Shown piece by piece: positions 1,701-19,577 of a DNA stretch of 34,645 nucleotides. Each line of letters opens with the position of its first letter. The stretch's first letter is position 1. Below the pieces are notes generated by a model. It was not told where the DNA came from, did no database searches, and saw only the letters and a program-made list of their open reading frames with translations. The position numbers and the translations under genes were made by a program. Source of the DNA: Bacteroidetes bacterium MED-G13 (lineage in GTDB: Bacteria > Bacteroidota > Bacteroidia > Flavobacteriales > Flavobacteriaceae); NCBI GenBank assembly GCA_002457735.1, contig NTKO01000013.1, positions 1 to 34,645 on the forward strand. The letters are read 5' to 3'.

Positions 1701-1850
1701 TGCCTGTATTGGTTTTTTGTAAACTCAACGCTATATAATTAAAAATGGTGAGTCTTTAATGCTAAATCGTGCTGATGTTCTCAGATTTTTGATCATTAAG
1801 TTAGCCATAAACTTGTTTTTTTGGAGTTTAATAAACAACTTTTACAGGCT
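1701..1850 (+). ncRNA. ssrS: 6S-like RNA (6S-Flavo type)
   Basis: The gap between zapA and xerD folds as a long rod. The ends pair perfectly (GCCTGTA at 1702-1708 with TACAGGC at 1843-1849), an inner stem pairs TAAACTC (1720-1726) with GAGTTTA (1824-1830), and a central hairpin CTGA/TCAG sits near 1772-1784. A T-run at 1850-1856 can terminate it. A -7-like box TACTTTTA (1690-1697) places the start near 1702. Position after zapA and the bulged rod shape fit the Bacteroidota 6S RNA, which sequesters RNA polymerase by mimicking an open promoter. Exact ends are inferred. Confidence 0.72.
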
Positions 1851-16091: not shown

Positions 16092-16996
16092 AAAAATTAA
16101 AACTAAAAAAATTAGCCGCAATAGATATTGGATCAAACGCTATTAGATTGTTAATTGCTAATACATACATTGAAAATAAAAATCTAACATATAAAAAAGT
16201 ATCTCTAATTAGACTTCCTATAAGACTAGGAAATGATGTTTTCACTAAAGGAGAAATTTCAAAAAATAATGTAAACAACTTGATTAAATCTGCAGAAGCT
16301 TTCAAAAGTATTATGAAAATTCATAATGTTTCTAGATATATAGCTGTTGCTACATCTGCTATGAGAGAAGCACAAAATGCAAAGCAAACGATAGATAAAA
16401 TTTACAAAAAAACAAAACTAAAAATTCAAATAATTTCTGGTGATTTAGAGGCTTCTTACATACTTCACTTATTTAAAAATAATTTGAATATTAAAAATAA
16501 AAATTATTTATTTATTGATGTTGGTGGTGGTAGTACAGAAATCAATCTATTATCAAACGGAAAAATAATTGCTTCTGATTCGTTCAAAGTAGGAACAGTT
16601 AGACTGATAAATAATTTTGATAATAACATTTTAAATGATTTGTCCGATTGGATTAATAGAAAAACAATGAAAATTAAAAACATAATTGTAATTGGAACAG
16701 GTGGAAATGCAAATAAAATCTTAAAAATTTTAAATAAAAACCCCTATGAAATAATAAAATTAAACTATTTATTAGATCTATTTAAAAAAGTTAAAAATTA
16801 TACGATTAATGAAAGAATAATAAAGCTAAAGTTAAATACTGACAGGGCAGATGTAATTGTACCTGCATTAGAAATTTATACTGATGCATTAAAATGTTCT
16901 AATTCAAGTAAATTTATGGTTCCAAGAATAGGATTAGCAGATGCTTTGATTCTAAGTTTGTACAAAGCTAATGTGAAAGGGAATAATTTAGATTGA
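16088..16996 (+). CDS. Ppx/GppA family phosphatase
   Basis: This is an ASKHA-fold hydrolase of the exopolyphosphatase / pppGpp phosphatase family. Key elements: phosphate-1 loop AAIDIGSNAIRLLIAN (about 9-24), VATSAMREAQN (about 88-98), phosphate-2 loop DVGGGSTEINLL (about 145-156), and IGTGGNANKI (about 203-212). At 302 residues it is the short, two-domain form without a C-terminal HD-like domain, so the choice between polyphosphate and pppGpp as substrate cannot be made from sequence alone. It is coupled to pdxH through ATGA. Its last 9 bases overlap the 3' end of the convergent dnaX gene, leaving no room for an intrinsic terminator. Confidence 0.9.
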   Translation: MKKLKLKKLAAIDIGSNAIRLLIANTYIENKNLTYKKVSLIRLPIRLGNDVFTKGEISKNNVNNLIKSAEAFKSIMKIHNVSRYIAVATSAMREAQNAKQTIDKIYKKTKLKIQIISGDLEASYILHLFKNNLNIKNKNYLFIDVGGGSTEINLLSNGKIIASDSFKVGTVRLINNFDNNILNDLSDWINRKTMKIKNIIVIGTGGNANKILKILNKNPYEIIKLNYLLDLFKKVKNYTINERIIKLKLNTDRADVIVPALEIYTDALKCSNSSKFMVPRIGLADALILSLYKANVKGNNLD

Positions 16997-18624
16997 AAGT
17001 TTAAACATATTTTTAAGCTTTTCAATCTTGGGATTTTTTTCTTTTAAAGCATTGTATTTTTCTGTAGTAGTATATTTAAATTTTTTTCTGATGTTTTTGT
17101 CAACAGAAATAATCAATTTTAAATTATTTTTTAATTCTTCACGAATAAAATTTTGAATTGAAATTATTTCTTTTTCAATTTCAAGCCTTGTTGTGTCATT
17201 AGGAACATTATAGGATATTGAATTTTTAGATAATATAGGAGTTGAAATTCTTAATATTGAGGCTATATTATACCTACCATTGGATTCTAATGTTTCAGCA
17301 TATTTTACCCATGCAGATTGCATATTTTTTTCAGATGTATTTACACTTGGTGAGTCTATAAAAATCTCCTCAATGGAGTCAATATGTTTTGTATTTTTTT
17401 CTTGTTTTACACTTTTTAATGACAACGTTGATGCAAATAAATTTTCATCAATTTTTGCAACTGGAGCTTCATCAGCTACAACTTCTTTATTTTCTTCATT
17501 AATCAAAATTTCTGTTAAGAAATTTAAGCCTTTAAATGTAGAAAAAGGAATTGGTTTAAAAATTACTTTTTTTTTTTATCATCATGTTCTAGTGAAGTGA
17601 TTTTTAAGAAAGTTAATTCAATAAGTAAATTTTGATTAAGACTTTTTTGAAAGTTTAACTCAGCTTGATTTAATATTGACAAAATTTCAATAATAATGCT
17701 ATAACTCAATTTTTTAGAATATTTTGACAAATTATCAATTTCAGCTTTTTCATTGTGACTTAATAACATTGTGTGTTCATTTTTACTGACCAATATGTCA
17801 CGCAGGAAAGAAGAAAAAGTTGAAATAAATATTTCACCTGCAATACCTTTATTTAAAATATTATTTATTTCAACTATTAAATTAGGAATATCTTTTTTAA
17901 GAATATGATCTAGAATTTTAATACTATCATTAATATCTAAGGAATTTAGATTATTTTGAACAGCATCTTTATTTATTTCTTTGCTTACACCTAAAACTTT
18001 GTCAAAAAGCTGCAATGCGTCTCTCATAGATCCATCACTCTTTGTTGCTATTATCTGCAAGGATTCTTTGTCATGAGATATATTTTCCAAAGAACAAATC
18101 TTTTCGAGATTTTTAATAATATCAAAATTGGAAATACGTTTGAAATTATAAATTTGACATCTAGAAATGATAGTTGGAATGATTTTATGTTTTTCGGTAG
18201 TAGCTAAAATAAAAATACAATGTTTAGGAGGCTCCTCTAATGTTTTTAAAAAGGCATTAAAAGCACCAGCTGAAAGCATATGCACCTCATCAATAATATA
18301 AACCTTATAATTTCCTTTTTGAGGAGGAATTCTAGTCTGTTCAATTAAGTTTCTTATATCATCAACTCCATTATTTGATGCAGCATCTAATTCAAATACA
18401 TTATATGAATAATCATCATCAATTTTAAATTTATTAATTTCTCTAGCTACAATTCTAGCACAACTTGTCTTTCCAACTCCTCTTGGCCCAGTAAATAAAA
18501 GAGCATGAGGTAGTTTACCGCTAGAAATTGTGCTTTCTAGACTATTGGTTATTATTTCTTGACCAATAACATCTTTAAATTTTAGGGGCCTATATTTTCT
18601 TGCAGAAATAATAAATTGACTCAT
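16988..18624 (-). CDS. dnaX: DNA polymerase III subunits gamma and tau, with a -1 frameshift joining two frames
   Basis: The N-terminal frame (18624 to 17563, 353 residues) has the clamp-loader AAA+ ATPase: Walker A GPRGVGKT (46-53), Walker B VYIIDEVHML, sensor TTEKHKI, and the gamma domain III. The usual four-Cys zinc module after Walker A is absent, as I recall in other Flavobacteriia. This frame ends DDKKKK-stop at an A11G tract. A second frame, open from the same tract to 16988, encodes about 190 more residues with an acidic/proline linker then a C-terminal helical domain, as expected of tau. A -1 slip (or one extra A) fuses them into about 545 residues. So gamma would be the normal-frame product and tau the shifted one. 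Sequencing error in the A-run is the main alternative. Confidence 0.85.
17563..17577 (-). other. dnaX slippery tract A11-G followed by stop
   Basis: On the minus strand the coding frame reads GAT AAA AAA AAA AAG TAA. The zero frame contains the E. coli dnaX slippery heptamer A AAA AAG, immediately followed by the stop. Shifting back one base reads AAA GTA ATT TTT and stays open to the end of tau. Eleven A are also enough for transcriptional slippage as in Thermus dnaX. Only a weak 5-bp stem (CCTTT/AAAGG, 17529-17548) lies downstream, favouring transcriptional over ribosomal slippage. Confidence 0.65.
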
Positions 18625-18727: not shown

Positions 18728-18730
18728 CGT

Positions 18731-19019
18731 TGTGAATCGTCTTGTCGCTATTTATAGAGGAAAGTCCGAACACCAAAGTACATCACAATGGTTAATTGCC
18801 ATCAATCGTGAGATTAGGAATAGTGCAACAGAAAGTATGTACAGGTTATGCTGTAGTGAAATCATGTAAACTCTGTGAGGTGCAATGTCATGTAAACCAG
18901 CACTTGAGAATTGTACGTTCGATGTTGGAGGGTAGACAGCTAGAATATACTGGCAACAGTATATCAAGATAAATGACAAGAACTATTATTAGTACAGAAT
19001 TCGGCTTATAGATTCACAA
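18731..19019 (+). ncRNA. rnpB: RNase P RNA
   Basis: This RNA is the catalytic component of RNase P, which removes the 5' leader of tRNA precursors. The ends pair perfectly as helix P1 (TGTGAATC at 18731-18738 with GATTCACA at 19012-19019). The 5' conserved core GAGGAAAGTCCGAACACC is at about 18757-18774, an internal AACAGAAA lies near 18827-18834, GGGTAGACAGCTAGAA is near 18930, and the 3' core ACAGAATTCGGCTTATAG is at about 18995-19012. The length, about 289 bases, is short for a bacterial type A RNA. A matched promoter box precedes it and a hairpin terminator follows. Confidence 0.95.
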
Positions 19020-19020
19020 A

Positions 19021-19049
19021 AAAGCGGGTTATATCCCGCTTTTTTTTTT
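19021..19049 (+). terminator. Terminator of rnpB, shared with the end of rsmD
   Basis: AAAGCGGG (19021-19028), loop TTATAT, CCCGCTTT, then a T-run to 19049. On the opposite strand the same hairpin is followed by five T, so it can also stop rsmD transcription; the last three codons and stop of rsmD lie in it. Confidence 0.92.
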
Positions 19050-19577
19050 AAAAAAACTAAATTTTGAATCACCATAACTTCTTTCATCAAATAAATGATT
19101 ATTTTGGGCAAATGTATTTTTTTTATAATGCTCCAAGATAAAAATACTATTGTTATTTTTTAGGCAATTGCTTATTATGCAATTAATGATGTTTTCATAT
19201 TTATTGTTGTCAAATAAATAGGGTGGGTCAGCAAAAACTAGATCATAAGTTCTTGTGAAGTTGTGGGAATAATTAAAGAAATTTTTAAAATAAACTGTAT
19301 GATTAATTTCTAATTTTAATGATGTTGACTTAATAAATTTAACACAATCATAATTTTTTTCTAAAAAATCTATTTGCTTGGCACCTCGGGAAGCACATTC
19401 ATATCCAAAAAAACCAGATCCTGAAAAAATATCAAAAACTTTAATATTATCAAATGAAATCAAGTTATTTAGAATATTAAAAAGCGCATGTCTACAAATA
19501 CTTGTAGTTGGTCTAATGGGTAATTTTTTAGGTACATTTATTATTCTTCCTCCAAATTTTCCAGCTATAATTTTCAT
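19029..19577 (-). CDS. rsmD: 16S rRNA (guanine966-N2)-methyltransferase
   Basis: RsmD uses SAM to methylate G966 of 16S rRNA in the small subunit. The 182-residue protein starts with the family pattern KIIAGKFGGRIINVPK and PIRPTTSICRHALFNIL (about residues 20-36), then the SAM motif FDIFSGSGFFGYECASRGA (about 48-66) and the catalytic motif FADPPY (about 115-120). Length is normal. The gene is the last of a three-gene minus-strand unit; its ATG overlaps the upstream DUF3822 stop by 4 bases. Its final residues (KKKSGI) are encoded by the rnpB terminator hairpin read in antisense. Confidence 0.93.
   Translation of the reverse strand: MKIIAGKFGGRIINVPKKLPIRPTTSICRHALFNILNNLISFDNIKVFDIFSGSGFFGYECASRGAKQIDFLEKNYDCVKFIKSTSLKLEINHTVYFKNFFNYSHNFTRTYDLVFADPPYLFDNNKYENIINCIISNCLKNNNSIFILEHYKKNTFAQNNHLFDERSYGDSKFSFFKKKSGI

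Follow-up and report, generated by a model that had tools for sequence, protein, structure and literature searches.

An A11 run in dnaX very likely gives a flavobacterium both gamma and tau

The dnaX gene yields two proteins, the clamp-loader subunit gamma and the longer tau that ties polymerases together, and the route by which the pair is produced differs between bacterial lineages. In Escherichia coli the dnaX shift site is the heptamer A_AAA_AAG, which is intrinsically slippery (PMC5009743). In Thermus thermophilus, as the work of Larsen et al. 2000 is relayed in two later papers (PMC1088944, PMC5009743), transcriptional slippage takes place on a run of nine A and tau is the default product. 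Slippage of this kind is described for enterobacterial RNA polymerase on runs of at least nine A or T and can go in either direction (review, PMC6260861). In the account given by Antonov et al. 2013 (PMC3711429), 17 dnaX genes from 12 genera need recoding to produce tau and nine of these genes have A10, and a mixed direction of the shift among orthologues is taken as a mark of transcriptional realignment; this two-ORF form of dnaX is also mentioned in Atkins et al. 2016 (PMC5009743). Lastly, a poly-A frameshift in dnaX of the insect endosymbiont Blochmannia is presumed to be rescued by transcriptional slippage (PMC3017870). Our literature search found no paper that names Flavobacterium or Bacteroidota as having such a tract. 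Here we describe a dnaX gene in which, as far as sequence can tell, a run of 11 A very likely lets a flavobacterium make the short and the long protein from one gene.

The gene lies on the minus strand of a 34,645-nucleotide stretch of DNA, referred to here as the window, from Bacteroidetes bacterium MED-G13 (contig NTKO01000013.1). Its unshifted product is a gamma ORF of 353 residues (17563-18624, minus strand) that consists of the AAA+ ATPase, lid and domain III of the clamp loader, with Pfam matches to DNA_pol3_delta2, DNAX_ATPase_lid and DNA_pol3_gamma3 and a score of 365 bits against the NCBIfam model TIGR02397 (dnaX_nterm, cut-off 250). Read directly, minus-strand positions 17580 to 17563 are GAT AAA AAA AAA AAG TAA. 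The tract is exactly 11 A (17567-17577, minus strand) at the boundary between domain III and the tau extension, where relatives also keep a run, and a homopolymer count over the whole window places it as the longest homopolymer present. The heptamer A_AAA_AAG (17566-17572, minus strand) stands in the phase of the gamma frame, and the in-frame gamma stop TAA (17563-17565, minus strand) adjoins the tract, one nucleotide after it. A second TAA, in the third frame that encodes neither gamma nor tau, lies eight nucleotides after the tract (17556-17558, minus strand) and is referred to here as a trap stop. The -1 frame relative to gamma is open from GTA at 17566 to TAA at 16990-16988, which gives a tau extension of 192 residues plus the stop (16988-17566, minus strand) and a tau of 545 residues in total. 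A preliminary description of this DNA had claimed the arrangement of A11, G and a gamma stop right after the heptamer, a tau of about 190 more residues in a -1 frame open to 16988, and a logic reversed relative to E. coli with gamma unshifted, and all three are borne out. We found only one copy of dnaX in the genome, which is a 1.06 Mb draft in 32 contigs and 82% complete.

Several features surround the gene. Tail to tail with the tau frame, which ends at 16988 on the minus strand, lies a ppx-like gene that ends at 16996 on the plus strand; the two 3′ ends overlap by 9 bases. The gap upstream of dnaX holds an RNase P RNA gene (18729-19024, plus strand; Rfam RF00010, 192 bits), and dnaX and rnpB are divergent. 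The last codons of an rsmD-like ORF (19029-19577) enter a hairpin, A10 - GCGGGATATAACCCGC - T6 (window 19019-19049, minus strand), and the stop of that ORF sits in the loop; the hairpin looks like a terminator common to both strands that would also serve rnpB. A 6S-Flavo RNA (1723-1829, plus strand; Rfam RF01685, 105 bits) lies in the first part of the window, where ORFs are otherwise few.

We compared the gene with other Bacteroidota using a set of 190 dnaX loci, among them that of the window, which were sampled at the levels of genus, family, order and phylum; 169 could be scored for the frame of tau. The loci are related, and the counts that follow are not independent. A run of at least nine A is present at the same domain boundary in 174 of the 190 loci, mostly as A10 and over a range of A9 to A13, and it is found even in genes of 42-60% GC where many other lysine codons are AAG. 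Outside the tract, the gamma domains of the 169 loci hold no A-run of nine or more in 172,809 nt. Eight loci, mostly from Bacteroidales, have no A-run of six or more at the boundary (L057, L062, L074, L075, L084, L089, L105 and L110), and in these the tau frame is continuous, as if slippage had been lost there.

The product that is read without a shift varies, being tau at 125 of the 169 loci and gamma at 44, of which 38 need a -1 and six a +1 change to reach tau. Gamma is the default in cultured isolates, among them Flavobacterium psychrotolerans, F. quisquiliarum, F. denitrificans, Flavicella marina, Aquimarina sp. RZ0, Halpernia humi and Chryseobacterium lathyri. By a hand count from record titles, 8 of 20 isolates are gamma-default, which is at least as common as in MAGs, and the state is kept over whole clades, for instance the clade to which Chryseobacterium and Halpernia belong. 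Its presence in isolates and conserved clades indicates that gamma-default is generally not assembly noise. Placed on a tree of the gamma domain, well-supported branches force at least 12 switches of the default, and parsimony needs 26 at the fewest, a rough figure since the FastTree phylogeny was quick and unrooted.

Long homopolymers in coding sequence are otherwise rare in this genome. We counted them over about 405 kb, window included, and took the expectation from synonymous codon shuffles. There are two coding A-runs of 11 or more against 10.3 expected, five A10 against 13.5 and no T10 against 9.2, whereas A8 is over-represented and A9 matches expectation. Most of the coding runs of at least 10 that remain lie within the opening or closing codons of their genes. 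The genome has two further coding runs of 11-12, both in frame: an A12 in a ubiE-like gene and a T11 where a gene begins. Because coding runs of at least 10 A or T are depleted two-fold or more and A8 and A9 are not, such runs seem to be costly here, yet dnaX keeps one. This suggests that the cost of slippage begins at 10 nt in this genome, although the depletion could have its source in replication slippage rather than in transcription.

The genus of the window is represented by 17 loci; 15 of them have tau as the unshifted product, and the window is one of the two exceptions. The other is L018 (genome G002), where the run, at about position 2550-2560 of the locus, reads GAAGG-A11-CTTAAAAATAA and tau needs +1, so that the direction of the offset is mixed inside the genus; the same holds in Flavobacterium, with +1 at L047 and -1 at L048 and L049. 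The nearest relatives of the window, L002 and L003, are 83% identical to it over the whole protein, 88% over gamma and 75% over the tau extension. Both of these sisters read ATG-A11-GTAATTTTTAAACC, and the window reads AT-A11-GTAATTTTTAAACC. The run is therefore equally long in all three, and what the window lacks is the G before it. The simplest reading is that one deletion, the loss of this G, flipped the window to gamma-default; a change of G to A together with the loss of one A, in the genome or in the assembly, is a possible alternative. Viral contigs were also scanned by sequence pattern, to check the run length in the same species, and held no second copy of the exact site.

An error of sequencing or assembly would give a different account of the window, in which the true tau frame is continuous, through A12 or through G-A11 as in the sisters, and the gene is an ordinary tau-default dnaX with a tract. 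The unshifted tau of most of the genus and of both nearest sisters fits this account, as does the draft state of the genome. However, the sisters also have A11 and differ by the G, which leaves a pure miscount of the homopolymer possible but not the simplest explanation, the two other coding runs of 11-12 in the same genome are in frame, and the gamma-default state recurs in isolates and over clades. We therefore consider an error unlikely, and a true A12 in particular, though possible, is less likely than the preliminary description had claimed. That description had also held that relatives reading through in one frame would speak against dual coding. Taken literally, this is what 15 of the 17 congeneric loci do, but the tract and the stops that follow it are present in all 17, so that dual coding is not refuted.

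These stops bear directly on the mechanism. Both frames other than tau are closed by a stop within 30 nt past the tract at 163 of the 169 loci, compared with about 37% expected (62 loci when the same codons are redrawn synonymously, 63 when positions in the tau linker are used). Within 15 nt the figure is 129 loci, against 37 from synonymous redraws and 24 from tau linker positions, and in the window's genus all 17 loci have both stops inside this distance. The effect is large at each of the three levels, genus, family and broader set, although the loci are related and not independent. For a -1 shift by the ribosome, a stop in one other frame would be enough; slippage during transcription yields both other frames, and the paired trap stops thus favour slippage of the RNA polymerase. 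Conservation of the tract and of these stops also supports the dual coding of gamma and tau through a slippage tract that had been claimed for the window.

The preliminary description had further named a -1 slip, next to the slippery A_AAA_AAG, or the insertion of one A as the ways to reach tau. In a ribosomal version of the former the mRNA would be uniform, and programmed -1 frameshifting at the heptamer, with the stop in the next codon acting as a pause, would make tau. The window does have the E. coli shift site in the gamma phase and a TAA directly after it, and -1 ribosomal slippage could thus also make tau here. The stimulators are missing, however: downstream of the site we detected no structure beyond that of shuffled sequences (z = 0.37), and the upstream segment CACTAGAACATGATGAT, inspected by eye, has no AGGAG-like motif that would serve as a Shine-Dalgarno-like stimulator. 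Only 10 of the 38 genes that need a -1 change have the heptamer in phase, and the six loci that need +1 are impossible to explain by a -1 shift. Together with the trap stops kept in both other frames, these results make a purely ribosomal origin of tau quite unlikely; the heptamer stands in phase in the window as was claimed, but the relatives point to transcriptional slippage. The comparison shows how the sequence is laid out, that the tract and the trap stops are conserved, that tau is under selection and that the default switched repeatedly. That the slippage is transcriptional, and how efficient it is in this organism, we infer; the mechanism would be mainly transcriptional, and in the window the ribosome may contribute to it.

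We propose that the A11 run is probably a programmed dnaX slippage tract on which RNA polymerase slips, and that the gene is indifferent to which product is the default, which the loss of one nucleotide could then flip. In this model, slippage on A11 would generate mRNAs that vary in their number of A. Gamma would come from mRNAs of 11 A (or 11 ± 3n), whose reading would stop at the TAA adjoining the tract, those with 12 A or 9 A would be read into the tau extension, and the third class would stop three codons later and give a gamma-like protein as well. With all frames supplied by slippage, the unslipped product would matter little, so that single-nucleotide indels at the tract would be tolerated and the default would flip. 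The loss of one nucleotide beside the tract would thus have turned a tau-default gene like that of the sisters into the gamma-default gene of the window. For Bacteroidota at large, we favour on balance the view that selection acts on the length of the run and on trap stops in both frames and not on the frame of tau, with the default flipped at least 12 times. The default would drift between tau and gamma, since every frame would be supplied whenever the tract is transcribed.

The tau extension itself is intact, as the preliminary description had maintained. It matches the C-terminus of the NCBIfam gamma/tau model PRK14971 (466-613 of 614, E 4.5e-16), and its dN/dS is 0.21 between the window and the sisters, compared with 0.19 between the two intact sisters. 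Judged by these ratios, the tau domain is under purifying selection as it is in the sisters, which argues that tau is still made, and the ratio and the profile match rule out decay. A true frameshift mutation after which tau is lost and gamma alone is made would explain the break in frame compared with the sisters, but it is very improbable for 192 open codons with such a ratio, in the single dnaX copy, whose tau is expected to couple polymerase cores, and with the lesion exactly within a conserved slippage tract. In an AlphaFold model the extension is predicted to form a linker followed by a globular C-terminal domain (confident at about residues 80-190, mean pLDDT 75). A search by sequence with the profile of this domain gave no match among solved structures. 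The predicted fold has weak matches only, the best being DnaA domain I in 4tps (E 0.003, probability 1.00), with DciA domains ranked below it, and these give only a hint that the tau C-terminus may be a helicase- or polymerase-binding domain.

Taken together, a tract kept across the phylum, closing stops in the two remaining frames and a default that flips are good comparative evidence for transcriptional slippage in this group. They also carry a warning for annotation, as many normal dnaX genes of Bacteroidota will be called frameshifted, truncated or pseudogenes.

Among the systems described before, dnaX of Blochmannia shares with the window an AT-rich genome and a poly-A indel in the same gene. 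The Blochmannia indel, however, lies inside the region coding for tau only and not at the gamma/tau boundary, and it reads as a tolerated accident as opposed to a conserved dual-product site. E. coli dnaX has the same pair of products and the same heptamer in phase, but there tau is unshifted and gamma comes from the -1 shift, the reverse of the window, and the window has neither the Shine-Dalgarno-like element nor the stem-loop that stimulate the E. coli shift. T. thermophilus, as its dnaX is presented in those later papers, likewise has an A-run at the gamma/tau boundary and near stops in both frames other than tau. The window has the homopolymer of at least nine and both stops, and it departs from Thermus in that gamma is unshifted; the sisters, being tau-default, do not show this difference.

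The preliminary description could not place the arrangement, which in fact agrees with the two-ORF dnaX as set out by Antonov et al. 2013 (PMC3711429). In those genes, as in the window, the unshifted frame ends with gamma just past a poly-A run after domain III and tau is encoded in the -1 frame; A10 is typical there, with transcriptional realignment proposed, and the window has A11. A gene with gamma as default and tau by recoding was thus already published in 2013. In the literature we searched we did not find phylum-wide conservation, the two-frame trap stops or the number of switches stated, and we claim no priority for them. The window itself comes from an AT-rich flavobacterium with a small genome whose congeneric sisters keep tau unshifted. 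What the present comparison adds to the two-ORF dnaX is a tract conserved across a phylum, at which the default product, as read from the gene tree, has switched at least 12 times.
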